DNA from: Pseudarthrobacter equi
GTDB taxonomy: Bacteria > Actinomycetota > Actinomycetes > Actinomycetales > Micrococcaceae
Reading direction: 5' to 3'
Assembly: GCF_900105535.1 (NCBI RefSeq)
Contig: NZ_LT629779.1
Coordinates: 682,001 to 746,000 of the forward strand
Length of the DNA stretch: 64,000 bases
Below the pieces are notes generated by a model, which saw only the letters and a program-made list of their open reading frames with translations, did no database searches and had not been told where the DNA came from. Within the stretch, counting starts at the first letter, position 1. Every line of letters starts with the position of its first letter. Position numbers and translations under genes: made by a program. Shown here in pieces: positions 29,909 to 44,844 of the stretch.

Positions 29909-31677
<1,769 letters not shown>

Positions 31678-31696
31678 AACCCACCCGGAGAACCAC

Positions 31697-32182
31697 GTGA
31701 TCATCGAGAAAATCCTCGGCAACCTCCACGACCTGCCCGAAACCGACCTCGCCGCCTACACCGGGCTCCACCGCGAGAAAGTGGTGCTGCCCAGCGCCCA
31801 ACTGGTCAAACGCATCCAACGCGCCACCACGGACCACGGCAACGACATCGGCATCCGGCTCGCCCCAGGATCCGGCGACCTCCGCGACGGCGACATCCTC
31901 CACGTCGCCGACACCAACATGATCGTGGTCTCCGTCCTGCCCACCGACGTCCTGGTCATCGCACCCCGCACCATCCACGAAATGGGCGTCACCGCACACT
32001 CCCTCGGCAACCGGCACCTCCAGGCACAATTCTTCGACTCATCCTCCGAGTACGGGGCCGACGTCATGGTGTGCGCCTACGACCACACCGTCGAGGACTA
32101 CCTCATCCACAACTCCGTGCCCTACGCCCGCCAGGAACGCGTCATGCCTGTGCCTTTCCGCCATGCTGAACACTCGCACTAA
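31697..32182 (+). CDS. ureE: Urease accessory nickel chaperone UreE
   Basis: A 161-residue nickel carrier that delivers Ni to the UreDFG complex. The N-terminal peptide-binding domain starts MIIEKILGNLHDL. The C-terminal metal-binding domain has LGNRHLQAQFF and the conserved AYDHTVEDYL. The C-terminal tail FRHAEHSH is a short His-containing metal site, not the long poly-His of enterobacteria. GTG start with GGAG upstream. Confidence 0.94.
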   Translation: MIIEKILGNLHDLPETDLAAYTGLHREKVVLPSAQLVKRIQRATTDHGNDIGIRLAPGSGDLRDGDILHVADTNMIVVSVLPTDVLVIAPRTIHEMGVTAHSLGNRHLQAQFFDSSSEYGADVMVCAYDHTVEDYLIHNSVPYARQERVMPVPFRHAEHSH

Positions 32183-32230
32183 CTCTTCCGCGCTGCGCGC
32201 TCTACGGGAGGTGCAGCTTGGGTGCGCCGC

Positions 32231-32290
32231 CCCGGATTGGGGGCCGTGCCCGCTCCGCGGTGCCCGCCACGCCGCGGCCCCCAATCCGGG
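32231..32290 (+). repeat. Hairpin repeat element 1 in the ureE-ureF gap
   Basis: Perfect 16-bp arms (32231-32246 with 32275-32290) enclose a 28-nt centre. The 42 bases at 32240-32281 are identical to 33719-33760 in ureD. Outside the core the arms read CCGGATTGG and its complement, whereas element 2 has CCGGATGTAAGG and its complement, so arms differ between copies yet stay paired. Confidence 0.9.
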
Positions 32291-32326
32291 CCGTCGCGAT
32301 GCTCCGTCACGGTTGGCGGTGGTGCT

Positions 32327-32995
32327 GTGAGTAGTTATCAGCTTGCTCTACAACAATTGGTTGACTCTGCGCTTCCTACTGGGGCTTTTGCTCACTCACT
32401 GGGGTTTGAGACGTACATCGATCGGGAGCTCCTTTTTGATGAGGAGTCGTTCGGGCTCTGGCTTCGTGCGTTTGTCTCGCGGTCGCTTGCTTACTCTGAT
32501 GGCTTGGCGATCCGCTTCCTTTATGAGGGTGTTGATCTTTGGGAGTTGGATGCTCTTTTGTCTGCTTCTCTGTTGCCTCGGGAGGTTCGGGAGGCCAGTT
32601 TGAAGATGGGCGGCCGTCTCTTGGAGATTGGGGCTGAGGTGTTTCCCTCGGCCGCGCTGGAACTGTACCGGGACCTGGTGACCAGCGGCCGGGCCGCCGG
32701 GCACCAGCCGCTGGCGTTCGCCGTCGTCGCCCGCTCACTGGGCGTGCCGCTGCAGGAGGCACTCGCCGCCTACCTCTTCGCCACCGTCATGTCCCTCACC
32801 CAGAACGCCGTGCGGGCCATCCCGCTCGGCCAGAATGCCGGCCAAAGGATCCTGCGGAAAGCGCACGACGACGTCGCTGCCGCCATCGAGGCGATCGCGC
32901 ACCTCACGCCGGACGACTTCGGCGCCGTCAGCCCAGGACTGGAAATCTCGCAAATGCGGCACGAACGCCAACGTGCCCGGATGTTCATGAGCTAA
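32327..32995 (+). CDS. ureF: Urease accessory protein UreF
   Basis: A 222-residue all-helical protein that forms the UreD-UreF-UreG activation complex. The start YQLALQQLVDSALPTGAFAH and the later LGQNAGQRIL match the family. I choose the GTG at 32327 because conserved sequence begins there; the frame is open upstream through hairpin element 1. The first 100 or so codons have unusual base use: 25 of the first 60 end in T, but none of 60 counted from 32653 onward do. The protein itself is normal. Confidence 0.93.
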   Translation: MSSYQLALQQLVDSALPTGAFAHSLGFETYIDRELLFDEESFGLWLRAFVSRSLAYSDGLAIRFLYEGVDLWELDALLSASLLPREVREASLKMGGRLLEIGAEVFPSAALELYRDLVTSGRAAGHQPLAFAVVARSLGVPLQEALAAYLFATVMSLTQNAVRAIPLGQNAGQRILRKAHDDVAAAIEAIAHLTPDDFGAVSPGLEISQMRHERQRARMFMS

Positions 32996-33025
32996 CAATG
33001 CTTATTGCTTTACAGGAGGAACACC

Positions 33026-33640
33026 ATGACTGAACCCATCAAAATCGGCATCGGCGGACCCGTCGGCGCCGGCAAAACCCAACTCGTGGAACGGCTCACC
33101 CGGCACATGAGCGGCGGCATCTCCATGGCCGCCATCACCAACGACATCTACACCATCGAGGACGCCAAAATCCTCGCCGCCAACGGCATCCTCCCCGAGG
33201 ACCGGATCATCGGCGTCGAAACCGGCGGCTGCCCCCACACCGCCATCCGCGAAGACACCTCCATGAACACCGCCGCCATCGAAGAACTCAAAACCCGGCA
33301 CCCCGACCTCCAAGTCATCTTCGTCGAATCCGGTGGCGACAACCTCTCCGCCACCTTCAGCCCCGAACTGGTCGACTTCTCCATCTACATCATCGACGTA
33401 GCCCAAGGTGAAAAGATCCCCCGCAAAGCCGGCCAGGGCATGATCAAATCCGACCTCTTCATCATCAACAAAACCGACCTCGCACCCCACGTCGGAGCGG
33501 ACCTTAGTGTCATGGAGCGAGACTCCAAAGAGTTCCGCGGCAACAAGCCGTTCTGCTTCACCAACCTCAAGACCGACGAAGGGCTCGACGCCGTTATCGA
33601 CTGGATCCGGCACGACGTCCTGATGCTCGACTTGGTATGA
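33026..33640 (+). CDS. ureG: Urease accessory GTPase UreG
   Basis: A 204-residue GTPase of the SIMIBI class driving nickel insertion. The P-loop GGPVGAGKT is at residues 10-18, the metal-binding CPH motif in TGGCPHTAI about residue 72, and NKTD (guanine specificity) about residue 151. The ATG at 33026 has AGGAGG upstream. Codon use is strongly C-ending, unlike its neighbours' 5' parts. It overlaps ureD by 4 nt. Confidence 0.97.
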
Positions 33641-34626
33641 CCTCCAACAGTTCCGTCGTCGACACACCTTGGGCGGCGCCCGCGGATGGGGCTACTTCAG
33701 GCGCTTCACCGGATGTAAGGGGCCGTGCCCGCTCCGCGGTGCCCGCCACGCCGCGGCCCCTTACATCCGGCTCCGCTTGCGCTGACAGCTCACCTATGGG
33801 CGAGCTTGAGCTTGTGGTCGCCGAGCGTGCGGGACGATCCTTTGCGGCGCATCAGTACCATCGCGGTGCTCTGCGGGTACTGCGACCGCACTATCTGGAT
33901 GACTCTGGACAGGTTTGTTATGTCGTTGTGAATCCTGGCGGGGCTTATCTGGGGGCTGACCTTTTTCTGCTGGATGTGGAGGTGGGTGAGGGCGCTGACC
34001 TCTTGTTGACCACTCAGTCTGCGACGAAGGTTTATCGGACTCCTGGGTCTTTTGCTGAGCAGCGGATGAGTGTGCGGCTGGGGGAGGGGGCGCGGCTGGA
34101 ACTCATGCCGGACCAGCTGATCGCCTACCGGGAGGCCAGCTACCGGCAACGGACCTCCGTGACCCTGCGGCCGTCGTCGAACCTTGTCATGGCGGAAGTA
34201 GTGACCCCTGGCTGGTCGCCGGACGGCGCCGCTTTCCGGTACGAGGAAGTGCGGCTGCGGAACGAGGTCCACATCGAAACGGATGAGGGCACGCAGATGC
34301 TTGCCCTCGACAACCTGCTGATCCGGCCGCCGCTCGGCGACGTCACCGGGCTGGGGTTCATGGAAGGCTTCAGCCACCTCGGCTCACTGGTGGTGGTGGA
34401 TGCCCGGGTGGACCAAGCGCTCGCAGACCACCTTCACCACCTCACGGCGGGATACGACGCCCGGACCGGAGTCACCCTCACCCGCACTGTCGCCCGAACC
34501 ACCGGCCTGGTGCTCCGCTCGATGTCCAACAGCACCGGCGAACTGAACCGCCTGCTCGCAGCCTGCGCCGACCTCCTGCGGGAACGCTGGCACGGGCAAG
34601 GCCCACTGAACCTGAGGAAGCACTGA
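33637..34626 (+). CDS. ureD: Urease accessory protein UreD
   Basis: The scaffold that binds apo-urease and UreF. Conserved UreD sequence starts at about codon 54 ([14 protein letters not shown]) and includes [20 protein letters not shown] and [19 protein letters not shown]. The ATG at 33637 overlaps ureG (ATGA), but its first 53 codons are encoded by spacer and hairpin element 2, giving a low-complexity Arg/Ala/Pro stretch. An ATG at 33796 would remove it but has no clear ribosome binding site. Of the 60 codons from 33796, 23 end in T; of 60 counted from about 34096, 3 do. Confidence 0.88.
33709..33770 (+). repeat. Hairpin repeat element 2 within the 5' part of ureD
   Basis: Perfect 17-bp arms (33709-33725 with 33754-33770) around the same 28-nt centre as element 1; 33719-33760 is identical to 32240-32281. 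The outer arm segment ATGTAA/TTACAT replaces ATTG/CAAT of element 1, keeping full pairing. Confidence 0.9.
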
Positions 34627-35669
34627 TGACGGCCCTGGCAAACATCGCAACCCTGTACCGCGACCGGGAAACCCTGCCGTTCCGGACCCGCCTGCTTGCC
34701 ACCTTTGGTGCCGTGGCCGCCCTGCATATTGCCGCCGTCGTCCTCCTCATCGCCGGCTCGGCAACAGCCGGCGCGCCCCTTGCCCTCGGCCTGGTCCTGA
34801 CCGCCTACGTGGCCGGCGTCAAGCACAGCTACGACTGGGACCACATCGCCGCCATCGACAACTCCACCCGCAAATTCGTGGCGCAGCGGAAGGACCCCGT
34901 CAGCGTAGGTTTCGCCTTCAGCCTGGGCCACAGTTCCGTGGTGGTCCTGGCCGGGCTGCTGGTGGTTGCGGGCGCCGCGGTGATCGGCCAGTTCATGGAA
35001 GACGGAACCACCGGCAACTACGTGCTGGGCCTGATCGGCAGTGGCGTGTCCGGGCTGTTCCTGCTGGCCATGGGGCTGTTCAACGGGCAGGCGTTCCTTC
35101 GTGCCGCGCAGGCCCTAAGGAGCGCCCGCAGCGGTGCGGCCATCAGGGACGAAGACCTGGAAAGCAAAGGATTTGTTGCCCGGCTCCTGTCCAGGCCGCT
35201 TGCACGGGTGCAGCGGCCACGGAACATCTACGTGATCGGTTTCCTGTTTGGACTCGGGTTCGACACCGCCACCACCATCGGGCTGCTGGTGGTGACCACC
35301 GCCGCATCCCTGGCCGGGGTGTCCCCGGTGGCACTCATGGCCCTTCCCCTCGCCTTCACCGCGGCAATGACCCTCTGCGACACGGTCAACGGTGTGGCGA
35401 TGATGCGCATGTACAGGTCAGCGATCCACAGCCCGCAGCGCAGGCTCGGCTTCAACGCAGTGGTGACCGGCATCTCAGCCCTGTCAGCGCTGTTCATCGC
35501 CGCCGTCACGCTCGGCGGATTCGCCAATGCCGCGTTTGACCTTGGCGACCCTCTGACTACCTGGCTGGGGAAACTCAACCTGGGGGAGGCGGGACTCCTG
35601 CTCGTGGCCGCCTTCATTGGCGTGTGGGCCCTTACGGCCGCCAGGAACCGGCTGCAGCGCGAGGGCTGA
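34626..35669 (+). CDS. Nickel/cobalt transporter, NiCoT family
   Basis: A 347-residue secondary transporter with about eight membrane helices that imports Ni2+ or Co2+. The NiCoT signature is present: H67-x2-D70-x-D72-H73 in VKHSYDWDHIAAIDN, then FSLGHSSVVV and FGLGFDTATT. Its ATG overlaps the ureD stop (TGATG), so it is co-expressed with urease and very probably supplies nickel to it. A weak end-of-operon region follows; no terminator was recognised. Confidence 0.93.
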   Translation: MTALANIATLYRDRETLPFRTRLLATFGAVAALHIAAVVLLIAGSATAGAPLALGLVLTAYVAGVKHSYDWDHIAAIDNSTRKFVAQRKDPVSVGFAFSLGHSSVVVLAGLLVVAGAAVIGQFMEDGTTGNYVLGLIGSGVSGLFLLAMGLFNGQAFLRAAQALRSARSGAAIRDEDLESKGFVARLLSRPLARVQRPRNIYVIGFLFGLGFDTATTIGLLVVTTAASLAGVSPVALMALPLAFTAAMTLCDTVNGVAMMRMYRSAIHSPQRRLGFNAVVTGISALSALFIAAVTLGGFANAAFDLGDPLTTWLGKLNLGEAGLLLVAAFIGVWALTAARNRLQREG

Positions 35670-42448: not shown

Positions 42449-43985
42449 CCTGGTTCCCGGCAAAAAACAGCCGGACCTCCCGCCGTGGGTCCGCTTCCAC
42501 CCGGGGCGCGTCGTCGAGCATCATGGTGCGGCGCTCCTGCCCGTATTCCGGCCACGCCAGGCCGGGCTGGTCCGGGGCCCCGGTGCCGGCGAAGGCCGCC
42601 CAGGCTCCGCTCATGGTGTCACTGAGGGCCTGCGGACCCTTGCCCCGGGTCAGGTAGGCGGCGTCCGGGGATGCCAAGTGCCGGAACACGAAGGGAATTT
42701 CCAGCGTGTGGCAGGATCCCAGCTTGCCGCCCATGGCCGGGCTGCGCCAGGTGAACAGGTAGGCGAATGTCCTGCCGTGCGCAGCGCTGCGTGCTGACTG
42801 GAGCCTCGCATCAAGCAGGTTGTTGCTGGGCTGGCGGTACACCGCATCGGCAATGGCCGCCTCCAGCAGTTCCTTCCCGCGGGGCCCGTGTGCCAGCACG
42901 GCCGCCAGTGCTTCCGCGTATCCCTGCGCGCAGTCTCCCGGCAGGCCCCCTGCGGACAGGACCGCGGCGGCCCGGTCCGGGTAACCAGGGTCTTCCGGCC
43001 GGTCCGGGCGCATTTCGACGGCGAAAGACCCTTCGTTGAGGTTGGTGCCCACCAGCAGGTCCACGCCACTGTTGATCCCGTTCCGGACGGCGTCCAGTGG
43101 AGGTTCCGGCAGTGACGGGGTCCCCACTGTTGGCTGGAAGGGGAGCGGCACTGCGTAGCTTTCGGCGGCGATCCGCTCTTCGAGTTGCTGCTGGGCGGCC
43201 AGCAGGTGTTCCACCGGAAGGGTGCGCAACTCACCTGCTGACGATTCGTCCAGGCCGCAAAGCCGCAGGAAGTCAGCAGTTACGCGCGCAGACCCCTCCG
43301 GGGTGCGGAAGCGCTCCGCTGTGCCGCTTTGCATGATGGCCCGCCGGAAGAGGCCTTCCGACGCCGGCATGCCCAGCAGGGTGCCGATGGCTGCCGCGCC
43401 GGCCGATTCGCCGAACAGGGTCACGTTGTGCGGGTCGCCGCCAAACCCGGCGATGTTGTCCCGCACCCAGCGCAGCGCCTCAATCTGGTCCAGCAGGCCA
43501 AGGTTGGATGAAGCCCCGAAATCATCGCCGAGCAGGTGTGCCAGGTGGAGGAAGCCCAGCGCACCCAGCCGGTAATTGATGGCTACCACCACCGTGCCCG
43601 TCGCTGCGGCGAGCCGGGCGCCGTCGTACATCCCGTCACTGTTGGCGCCCATCAGGTAGGCGCCGCCGTGGATCCAGACCATCACCGGCCTGGCCGTCCC
43701 GCCGGTGCCCGGCGTCCAGATGTTCAGGTTCAGGCAGCCGTCCTCGCTCCAGGCCAGCGGGGTTTCGTCTGGATCACGGGCGTCCGGGTTCTGGGGGGCT
43801 GCGGGGCCGTACCCGGTGGCGTCCACCTCGCCGGTCCATTGGGGGAGGGCCACTGGCGGGCGGAAGCGCAGTTCTCCCGATGGCGGCTGGGCGTAAGGGA
43901 TGCCGAGGAACCGGTGCACGGGGGCGCCGTCCACTGCCAGGGTGGCTCCGCGGAAGGTTCCGCCGATGCTGGAGGCGAGCTTCAT
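42426..43985 (-). CDS. Type B carboxylesterase
   Basis: A 519-residue alpha/beta-hydrolase of the carboxylesterase/para-nitrobenzyl esterase group. Oxyanion-hole motif WIHGGAY is at residues 104-110, nucleophile Ser194 in GESAGA, an acidic-residue motif TNLNEGSF about residue 317, and catalytic His in GSCHTLEIPF about residue 428. There is no signal peptide. I start at the ATG at 43985, which has AAGGTG upstream; a GTG 9 nt earlier is possible. Confidence 0.9.
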   Translation of the reverse strand: MKLASSIGGTFRGATLAVDGAPVHRFLGIPYAQPPSGELRFRPPVALPQWTGEVDATGYGPAAPQNPDARDPDETPLAWSEDGCLNLNIWTPGTGGTARPVMVWIHGGAYLMGANSDGMYDGARLAAATGTVVVAINYRLGALGFLHLAHLLGDDFGASSNLGLLDQIEALRWVRDNIAGFGGDPHNVTLFGESAGAAAIGTLLGMPASEGLFRRAIMQSGTAERFRTPEGSARVTADFLRLCGLDESSAGELRTLPVEHLLAAQQQLEERIAAESYAVPLPFQPTVGTPSLPEPPLDAVRNGINSGVDLLVGTNLNEGSFAVEMRPDRPEDPGYPDRAAAVLSAGGLPGDCAQGYAEALAAVLAHGPRGKELLEAAIADAVYRQPSNNLLDARLQSARSAAHGRTFAYLFTWRSPAMGGKLGSCHTLEIPFVFRHLASPDAAYLTRGKGPQALSDTMSGAWAAFAGTGAPDQPGLAWPEYGQERRTMMLDDAPRVEADPRREVRLFFAGNQVRRQPVS

Positions 43986-44091
43986 GATTGACACCTTACG
44001 GGGTGTCCACGGGTACGCTGAGGACTACCGTTCGGCAGTGAGCGGCCATGGTGTGCCATGGCTTATCAATTGTGTCCGGGAGGGAATATTT

Positions 44092-44844
44092 GTGGTTGAC
44101 GCCGGGGTTTCGGGCGGCAAGGTTTTTGCCGATGTTGCAGCCCACGTTCAGGACCTTGTCCTGCAGAGTCCTGATGTGGTCCGGCTCCTGGACAGCCTTG
44201 CCCTCTACGCGGTAGCCCGGCTGGGGAGCGTAGGCCGGGAGCTGTTCTGCGGTATCTCCGTCAGCCGCCCCAAGAAACCCACGGCAGCGGCCGCCAGCGA
44301 CACCAAGGCGAGGCTGCTTGACCAGCTGGAACTCAAGTACGGCCAGGGGCCAGGAGACTCCGCCGTCAGCAGCGCGGCCACCATGCACATCAAGGACCTG
44401 CGGGAGGAAGCGCGGTGGCCGGATTACGCCGCCGCGGCCACTCACCAGGGCGCCCACTCCGTGCTGGCCATGCCGCTGCAGCTCGAGGGTGAGGACCGCG
44501 GCGTGTTGGTCCTGTACAGCGGGCAGCCCCATGCTTTCAGCGCCGATGCCGTTGCCATGGCCGAGGCGTTCACGGAACAGGCGGCCAAGGGCGTGGCCCT
44601 GACGCTGCGGATGGCGAAGCTCCAGGACACCAAGGATGGAATGACCGCGGCAATGCAGACGCGGACGGTCATCGACCTGGCCACCGGTGCCATCATGGCG
44701 CAGAACCGCTGCAGCCAGGACGAAGCGTTCAAGGTGCTGCGGGAAGCCTCCAACAGCAGGAACATGAAGCTGCGGGACGTTGCCTCGCTGGTGGTGTCCT
44801 CGGTAGCCGGCGGCGCAAAGACGTTCACCTACTTCGACGAATAG
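44092..44844 (+). CDS. GAF and ANTAR domain regulator (second copy of type)
   Basis: A 250-residue regulator. A GAF domain (about residues 25-160) is followed by a helix and an ANTAR domain: TRTVIDLATGAIMAQNRCSQDEAF, with the same AQNRCS core as the protein at 23672. The GTG at 44092 has GGGAGGG 7 nt upstream; open sequence further upstream overlaps the esterase start and is not domain-like. Its 3' end overlaps the convergent next gene by 16 nt. Confidence 0.85.
   Translation: MVDAGVSGGKVFADVAAHVQDLVLQSPDVVRLLDSLALYAVARLGSVGRELFCGISVSRPKKPTAAAASDTKARLLDQLELKYGQGPGDSAVSSAATMHIKDLREEARWPDYAAAATHQGAHSVLAMPLQLEGEDRGVLVLYSGQPHAFSADAVAMAEAFTEQAAKGVALTLRMAKLQDTKDGMTAAMQTRTVIDLATGAIMAQNRCSQDEAFKVLREASNSRNMKLRDVASLVVSSVAGGAKTFTYFDE

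Follow-up and report, generated by a model that had tools for sequence, protein, structure and literature searches.

Beletskii and Bhagwat reportedly found in 1996 that C-to-T changes arise on the nontranscribed strand in Escherichia coli. Passages of PMC2866735 describe transcription-induced C-to-T mutation of this strand in E. coli, and PMC11838912 reports a transcription-dependent C-to-T rate at the nlpD hotspot of Pseudomonas fluorescens, while PMC2927911 deals with strand asymmetry that accompanies transcription close to the starts of vertebrate genes. Explanations of synonymous composition are commonly sought at the level of the gene or of the genome. Here, we describe a sharp switch inside genes, at about codon 100, which occurs in two genes of one urease operon and tends to be on or off with an intergenic spacer; a limited literature search, by title and start of abstract, found no description of such tracts. 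Strand and base change are the same as in the E. coli system, but the latter, in the passages of PMC2866735, consists of laboratory mutation assays, whereas the tract is an evolutionary footprint with definite ends, known from sequence. The nlpD hotspot, as presented in PMC11838912, likewise concerns C-to-T change in a bacterium, but is a single base at a promoter, whereas the tract covers 300 nt behind a spacer. Like the vertebrate asymmetry of PMC2927911, the tract is a local, strand-specific substitution bias in transcribed DNA that is tied to position along the gene; however, it lies in the coding sequence of operon genes in bacteria, stops at about 300 nt, and depends on the spacer between two genes instead of a transcription start.

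The locus was analyzed within a 64,000-nt stretch of contig NZ_LT629779.1 of Pseudarthrobacter equi (hereafter the window, to which all coordinates refer). A 144-nt intergenic spacer (32183-32326, plus strand) separates ureE (31697-32182) from ureF, and a second one of 155 nt (33641-33795, plus strand) separates ureG (33026-33640) from ureD; both bear a hairpin. By family search, the products of ureF and ureD belong to the UreF family PF01730 and the UreD family PF01774, respectively. Consensus sigma-70 promoter sites were absent from 31600-34700, as judged by a pattern that may not suit an actinobacterium. Over the initial ~108 codons of ureF (32327-32650, plus strand) and the initial ~98 codons of ureD (33796-34092, plus strand), third-position C gives way to T, while the remainders of both genes (32651-32995 with C/G-ending codons and 34093-34626, both plus strand) have ordinary codon endings and served as internal controls. 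Third-position T/(T+C) amounts to 0.71 for codons 2-100 of ureF compared to 0.05 from codon 111 to the end, with corresponding values of 0.70 and 0.09 for ureD.

This confirmed the observation underlying the original prediction, and recounting returned the numbers that it had given for T-ending codons: 25 in codons 1-60 of ureF (11+7+7), 23 in codons 1-60 of ureD (5+7+11), and 3 in codons 101-160 of ureD. The further statement that none of 60 ureF codons from 32653 ends in T holds for the 40 codons 121-160, but position 32653 is out of the ureF frame; the drop in T-ending codons lies near codon 108. As had been claimed, ureC, ureE, and ureG lack a tract, with the exception of ureE codons 141-160, which include 4 T-ending ones, and ureG, despite its place between ureF and ureD, retains C- and A-ending codons. 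The tract had also been placed relative to the hairpin, directly behind it, but its anchor turned out to be the codon number rather than the distance from the hairpin. In profiles computed on the first 101 loci of the comparison described below, T/(T+C) per ten codons ranges from 0.58 to 0.77 over codons 1-90 of the 71 ureF tract loci and stands at 0.21 for codons 111-120, while the 56 ureD tract loci range from 0.42 to 0.73 over codons 1-100, with 0.17 at codons 101-110. Moreover, the 71 ureF tract loci are richer in G+T than 8 low loci from +0 to +330, and past +330 the difference lies between -0.03 and +0.01, except for 0.08 at +360 to +390.

The tract is not peculiar to this genome, since the majority of 134 urease loci (100 + 33 + window) from this genus, which comprises Arthrobacter-group soil bacteria, share it. 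Among 198 genomes of the genus, ureF was detected in 175. The first set comprised 100 loci among the matches listed and is not a random draw, because nearly all of the closest matches were taken first and others were then hand-picked for spread; the second set consisted of the 80 best among 114 confirmed loci, and 33 of these 80, which were not identical to the first set, belong to named Arthrobacter, Pseudarthrobacter, and Paenarthrobacter genomes. Outside the genus, ureD lacked the tract in 21 of the 22 best loci of the family search (difference from -0.11 to +0.10), the exception being one locus (L149, genus code g27) with a T/(T+C) of 0.46 vs 0.22.

We show that in this genus, the coding strand is shifted from C to T over the initial ~300 nt of ureF and ureD, and that in each of the two genes the strength of this shift goes along with a spacer directly upstream. 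With a tract called at T/(T+C) above 0.45 and a spacer defined as at least 40 nt, 80 of 90 loci with a spacer have the ureF tract, compared to 10 of 44 without. Phylogenetic contrasts over the 134 loci gave a slope of 0.156 for the spacer on the ureF tract (p=8e-11) and no spacer effect in the ureF remainder (p=0.76), and the relation was replicated in the 33 loci outside the first set (9/10 with a spacer vs 3/23 without). In joint models, the spacer before ureD predicts the ureD tract (p=0.018) but not that of ureF (p=0.38), while in single contrasts the ureF spacer was also correlated with ureD tract strength (r=0.30, p=0.0025). A strict independent-pairs test, restricted to well-supported branches and thereby to 7 pairs, was not significant (median p 0.5), and the tree itself is weakly supported (18 of 98 inner branches starred). 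The tract of three spacer-less loci (L031, 0.55; L039, 0.59; L054, 0.58) is read as a sign of recent spacer loss.

Most spacers carry a hairpin. When strong stems were defined as at least 13 bp with at most 1 mismatch, a definition that undercounts imperfect stems, the ureF tract was present in 73/78 loci with spacer and strong stem, 7/12 with a spacer lacking a strong stem, and 10/44 without spacer; for ureD, these numbers were 48/56, 46/70, and 1/7. Mean tract strength follows the same order, with 0.35 (no spacer), 0.45-0.54 (weak stem), and 0.63 (at least 13 bp) in ureF and 0.37, 0.48-0.52, and 0.57 in ureD. Such a gradient would suit a hairpin that causes the tract itself, through stalling, processing, or a cruciform, with stem-less tract loci having lost their hairpin recently. 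Furthermore, five ureD genes of other genera behind spacers of 122-197 nt, as well as a locus with spacers of 100 and 152 nt (L295), have no tract, and all of these spacers lack a strong stem; therefore, the hairpin may matter after all. However, with the spacer in the model (p=6.7e-06 for ureF), a strong stem has no additional effect in ureF (p=0.44) and contributes only 0.04 in ureD, where both terms count (p=0.014 each), and the hairpin core does not predict the ureD tract in contrasts (r=0.08, p=0.43). The tract is found at the same ureD codons behind an inverted hairpin (13 loci), behind a 40-90 nt spacer without the core (21 loci), and behind a longer spacer that lacks it too (23 loci, of which at least some have a longer hairpin). 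Therefore, the core hairpin is not needed, although this does not wholly remove the link to hairpins, which, according to the original prediction, would fall if orthologues without the element shared the tract. At L183, a hairpin of the longer version lies between two other genes that run in the same direction, and no tract follows it. We thus regard the hairpin as an unlikely cause: the spacer, rather than the hairpin it usually carries, is the best predictor of the tract, hairpin orientation is irrelevant, and hairpin presence makes a small addition for ureD and nothing detectable for ureF.

Both hairpins are nonetheless real. Hairpin 1 (32224-32297) consists of arms 32224-32246 and 32275-32297, which are 91% complementary with 28 nt between them, and hairpin 2 (33709-33770) of the fully complementary (100%) arms 33709-33725 and 33754-33770. 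They share an identical 42-nt core (32240-32281 and 33719-33760), and their fold z is -1.46 (hairpin 1, folded alone) and -3.10 (hairpin 2). Across species, the outer stem covaries, for hairpin 1 in 58 loci, while the inner core is conserved. The core, with up to 3 mismatches, occurs in 108 of 198 genus genomes, and P. equi itself has 2 copies at that threshold. Before ureF, it is in forward orientation at 58/58 loci, while before ureD it is inverted at 13/53, and in some spacers the hairpin is longer owing to additional loop sequence. A structured palindrome at several intergenic sites and in either orientation resembles REP-like palindromic elements, which are likewise short intergenic palindromes with recurrent sites and either orientation; unlike these, our element appears to have few copies per genome, recurs inside a few operons, and has a core that is conserved within an outer stem that covaries.

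The same covarying element was observed, in either orientation, in the grpE-dnaJ intergenic region of other congeneric species (L103-L110, L112, L117, L120-L122). A stem of 13-21 bp precedes dnaJ at 30/30 loci, and dnaJ has a weaker 5' T excess, which speaks for a causal hairpin inasmuch as it exceeds the remainder by more than 0.1 at 23/30 loci (13/13 in the earlier hairpin set) and against it inasmuch as 7/30 genes behind a strong stem show no such excess; for the same weakness and the same 7 loci, dnaJ was not retained as a third tract example. A further copy lies in frame within the N-terminal part of cysD (L113, L114, L116, L216, L217), and the hairpin is therefore translated. Since the element is intragenic there and the T/(T+C) of two hairpin copies (0.22 and 0.29) overlaps the hairpin-free range of 0.15-0.23 (L218, L219, L222), cysD was dropped as well. 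At L180, a long-version copy was seen inside a frame (774-2367) whose start resembles a dihydrolipoyl acyltransferase, a name judged from the sequence. Some spacers contain another repeat family, built on GGTGGTCGAGCCTGTCGAGACC and partners, which was seen directly in the spacers of L295 and was also noted for the L007 and L021 region of other species.

At the level of single sites, the third-position signal consists chiefly of coding-strand C-to-T exchange and not of G replacing A. From loci without to loci with a spacer, T at 4-fold third positions rises from 0.167 to 0.345 and C falls from 0.317 to 0.214, while A goes from 0.046 to 0.027 and G from 0.470 to 0.413; the coding-strand C-to-T excess is present at 4-fold and NNY sites alike. 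G-ending codons are frequent in the tracts, as had been claimed, but their frequency is independent of the spacer, which also leaves the G share at two-codon purine sites unchanged. The stronger the ureF tract, the more its amino-acid-changing positions are shifted towards G/T (r=0.49, p=2.7e-07), a shift absent from the ureF remainder (r=0.05) and from ureD (r=0.07, p=0.46). The spacer before ureF has G/T-rich flanks (0.60), in contrast to the ureG-ureD spacer, whose flanks in the relatives lack a coding-strand bias (G+T 0.53 and 0.50, T/(T+C) 0.29-0.32, C 0.33-0.35).

Our best reading, which we propose tentatively, is that C-to-T mutation is linked to transcription at places where the nascent RNA is free of ribosomes. 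At a gene joined to its upstream neighbor (gap of about -8 to 20 nt), ribosomes would run on and keep the RNA covered. At a spacer, mostly a hairpin-bearing one, they would leave at the upstream stop and a fresh start would be needed, so that few ribosomes would cover the transcript of the spacer and of the initial ~300 nt of the following gene. Along such naked RNA, the non-template (coding) strand might remain single-stranded for longer, for example in an R-loop, and its exposed cytosines could deaminate, yielding C-to-T changes until new ribosomes catch up near +300. Once a spacer is lost, ordinary pressure for C-ending codons would restore C over evolutionary time. While the dependence on the spacer is measured, we infer the displaced strand and its deamination. 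Of the three ideas offered by the original prediction (strand-biased mutation, gene conversion from another donor, and selection on early mRNA structure), the first is the best supported, albeit unproven. If it holds, a readable trace remains in the DNA wherever translation is uncoupled from transcription, and the length of ~300 nt bears on how long the nascent transcript is naked.

Directional changes were tallied in trios hand-chosen from the weakly supported tree, in which L102, L080, and L071 have one shared sister and L061 and L062 another, L077 (two sisters) was counted once, and L059 (spacer-less sister) was left out. Along 13 spacer-less branches, the ureF tract underwent 64 T-to-C and 15 C-to-T changes, compared to 13 and 23 in the ureF remainder, while nine spacer-bearing sisters had 8 T-to-C and 21 C-to-T changes in the tract. 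In 17 disjoint pairs, T and C had been exchanged at 68/257 two-codon NNY sites of the ureF tract vs 13/255 of its remainder, and 4-fold sites of ureF gave a T-C divergence of 0.126 vs 0.032, with A-G divergence at 0.021 vs 0.019. For ureD, NNY divergence was 48/209 in the tract vs 57/369 in the remainder (17 disjoint pairs). Compared to a hand calculation of the ratio expected under relaxed codon selection, the observed NNY ratio is 5.2 vs 3.1 for ureF and 1.5 vs 1.6 for ureD. Divergence between T and C is raised most, clearly so in ureF and in ureD only as far as relaxed selection would predict; transversions are also raised in the tract, as are amino acid changes in ureF.

The higher synonymous and amino acid divergence of the ureF tract relative to its remainder would also be expected of a segment that a donor with T/G-ending codons had contributed, whether by gene conversion or by horizontal transfer. 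However, the tract state changes at least 19 times and the spacer state 22 times on the 134-locus tree, the same codon limits apply in two genes, and T-to-C changes prevail on spacer-less branches, which makes a donor very improbable. In favor of transcription-linked mutation, we counted the spacer dependence and its replication, the T-to-C changes on spacer-less branches, the replacement of C by T without one of A by G, the raised exchange between T and C in ureF, the amino acid shift in ureF, and the G/T-rich flanks before ureF. Counted against it were the lack of an amino acid shift in ureD, the ureD NNY divergence, which is about that of relaxed selection, the raised transversions and ureF amino acid changes, the tract-less spacers of other genera and L295, the correlation of the ureF spacer with ureD tract strength in single contrasts, and the non-significant independent pairs together with the weak tree.

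Mutation is only slightly ahead of a near-equal rival, selection against C in the RNA, which we likewise consider a genuine possibility. Here, C would be purged from ~300 nt of poorly ribosome-covered RNA, mostly via the easiest step, C to T, because C would be costly in the presence of C-directed machinery, such as an actinobacterial RNase E cutting 5' of C or Rho being loaded onto C-rich RNA. Passages of PMC10641625 describe mycobacterial RNase E as cutting preferentially before cytidine, which would give a motive to purge C from poorly covered actinobacterial RNA, provided that Arthrobacter shares this preference, as is assumed here; a consequence for codon composition is absent from those passages. 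The C content of ureF from +3 to +315 is 22.2% in 81 tract loci compared to 33.9% in 21 low loci, while the downstream values are nearly equal (36.7 and 37.4), and the local, spacer-dependent, and codon-changing effects fit selection as well as mutation. However, the spacer flanks before ureD retain C, 4-fold A falls although A would serve like T, and the exchange between T and C is fast, not slowed. The unbiased ureD flanks, which belong to the same presumed naked zone, count against mutation and selection alike. If selection on the RNA is the right reading, codons are shaped across hundreds of bases by Rho or by RNA decay directed at C. Natural species pairs with and without the spacer make the mutational and the selective reading directly testable.

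Ordinary translational ramps span 30-50 codons. A ramp, in which slow or wobble-read codons would be selected in the ~100 initial codons of freshly initiated genes, is compatible with T-ending codons being rare in the genome and with the effect at ureD being confined to coding sequence. We consider it improbable, however, because the tract is longer than such ramps at ~100 codons, because rare A-ending codons of four-codon boxes are depleted rather than enriched, because amino-acid-changing positions of ureF shift too, and because tract enrichment has neither a positive nor a negative relation to the codon preference of ribosomal-protein genes (rho 0.19, p=0.14). By this last measure, codon optimality and anti-optimality were rejected as well. 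Selection on early mRNA structure, as originally suggested, leaves the 300-nt length and the scarcity of A-ending codons unexplained, although less structure is predicted for the tract RNA. An overlapping gene was also rejected, as the best alternative frame is open in 56% of the 71 ureF and 55% of the 56 ureD tract loci, with the same frame open in 34% (ureF) and 70% (ureD) of downstream control segments and with a codon shuffle being unable to change the stops of that frame; at one ureF locus among the 71, the nominal own frame itself contains a stop. A search for a sequence motif yielded no site-like word (top 6-mers at 2-3.5 times synonymous shuffles, among related sequences), and G runs in the tract equaled synonymous shuffles.

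As a control within the same genome, 21 stretches (the window and 20 of 20 kb) covering 464 kb of 4.46 Mb were analyzed. With gene-caller starts, mean 5' T/(T+C) of 274 genes of at least 190 codons varied between 0.147 and 0.180 across five distance groups, and only 1 of the 274 (at 43966) exceeded its own remainder by more than 0.2; ureF and ureD are hidden in this set because the caller trims low-scoring starts. With the farthest starts, 11/285 genes exceeded their remainder by more than 0.2, two of which are ureF and ureD, while several of the others look like spurious extensions, as judged from their translations. A general 5' T excess in genes behind spacers was thus not seen in this 464-kb sample, which weighs against the mutational and the selective reading alike. 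It is a possibility, though a rather doubtful one, that bacterial operons more broadly carry footprints of lost translation-transcription coupling, in which C is replaced by T on the coding strand over the ~300 nt behind strong, mostly hairpin-bearing spacers and which fade once the genes are joined again. If this were true, tract length would be a genome-readable measure of the lead of RNA polymerase over the pioneer ribosome.

Some additional observations were made in the window. The gene at 43966-44841, which encodes a GAF-ANTAR protein, has a milder T-rich 5' part (T/(T+C) 0.38 vs 0.12). Antisense to ureC, on the minus strand, a match to Rfam RF02514 (5' ureB small RNA) was found at 30084-30364 (E 6.6e-29, 109.7 bits), perhaps due only to conserved urease coding sequence. 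Furthermore, ureE and ureG, as well as their relatives, are skewed in the opposite way: AAA accounts for 0.55 of lysine codons compared to 0.15 in the genome sample, and CTC for 0.55 of leucine codons compared to 0.29.
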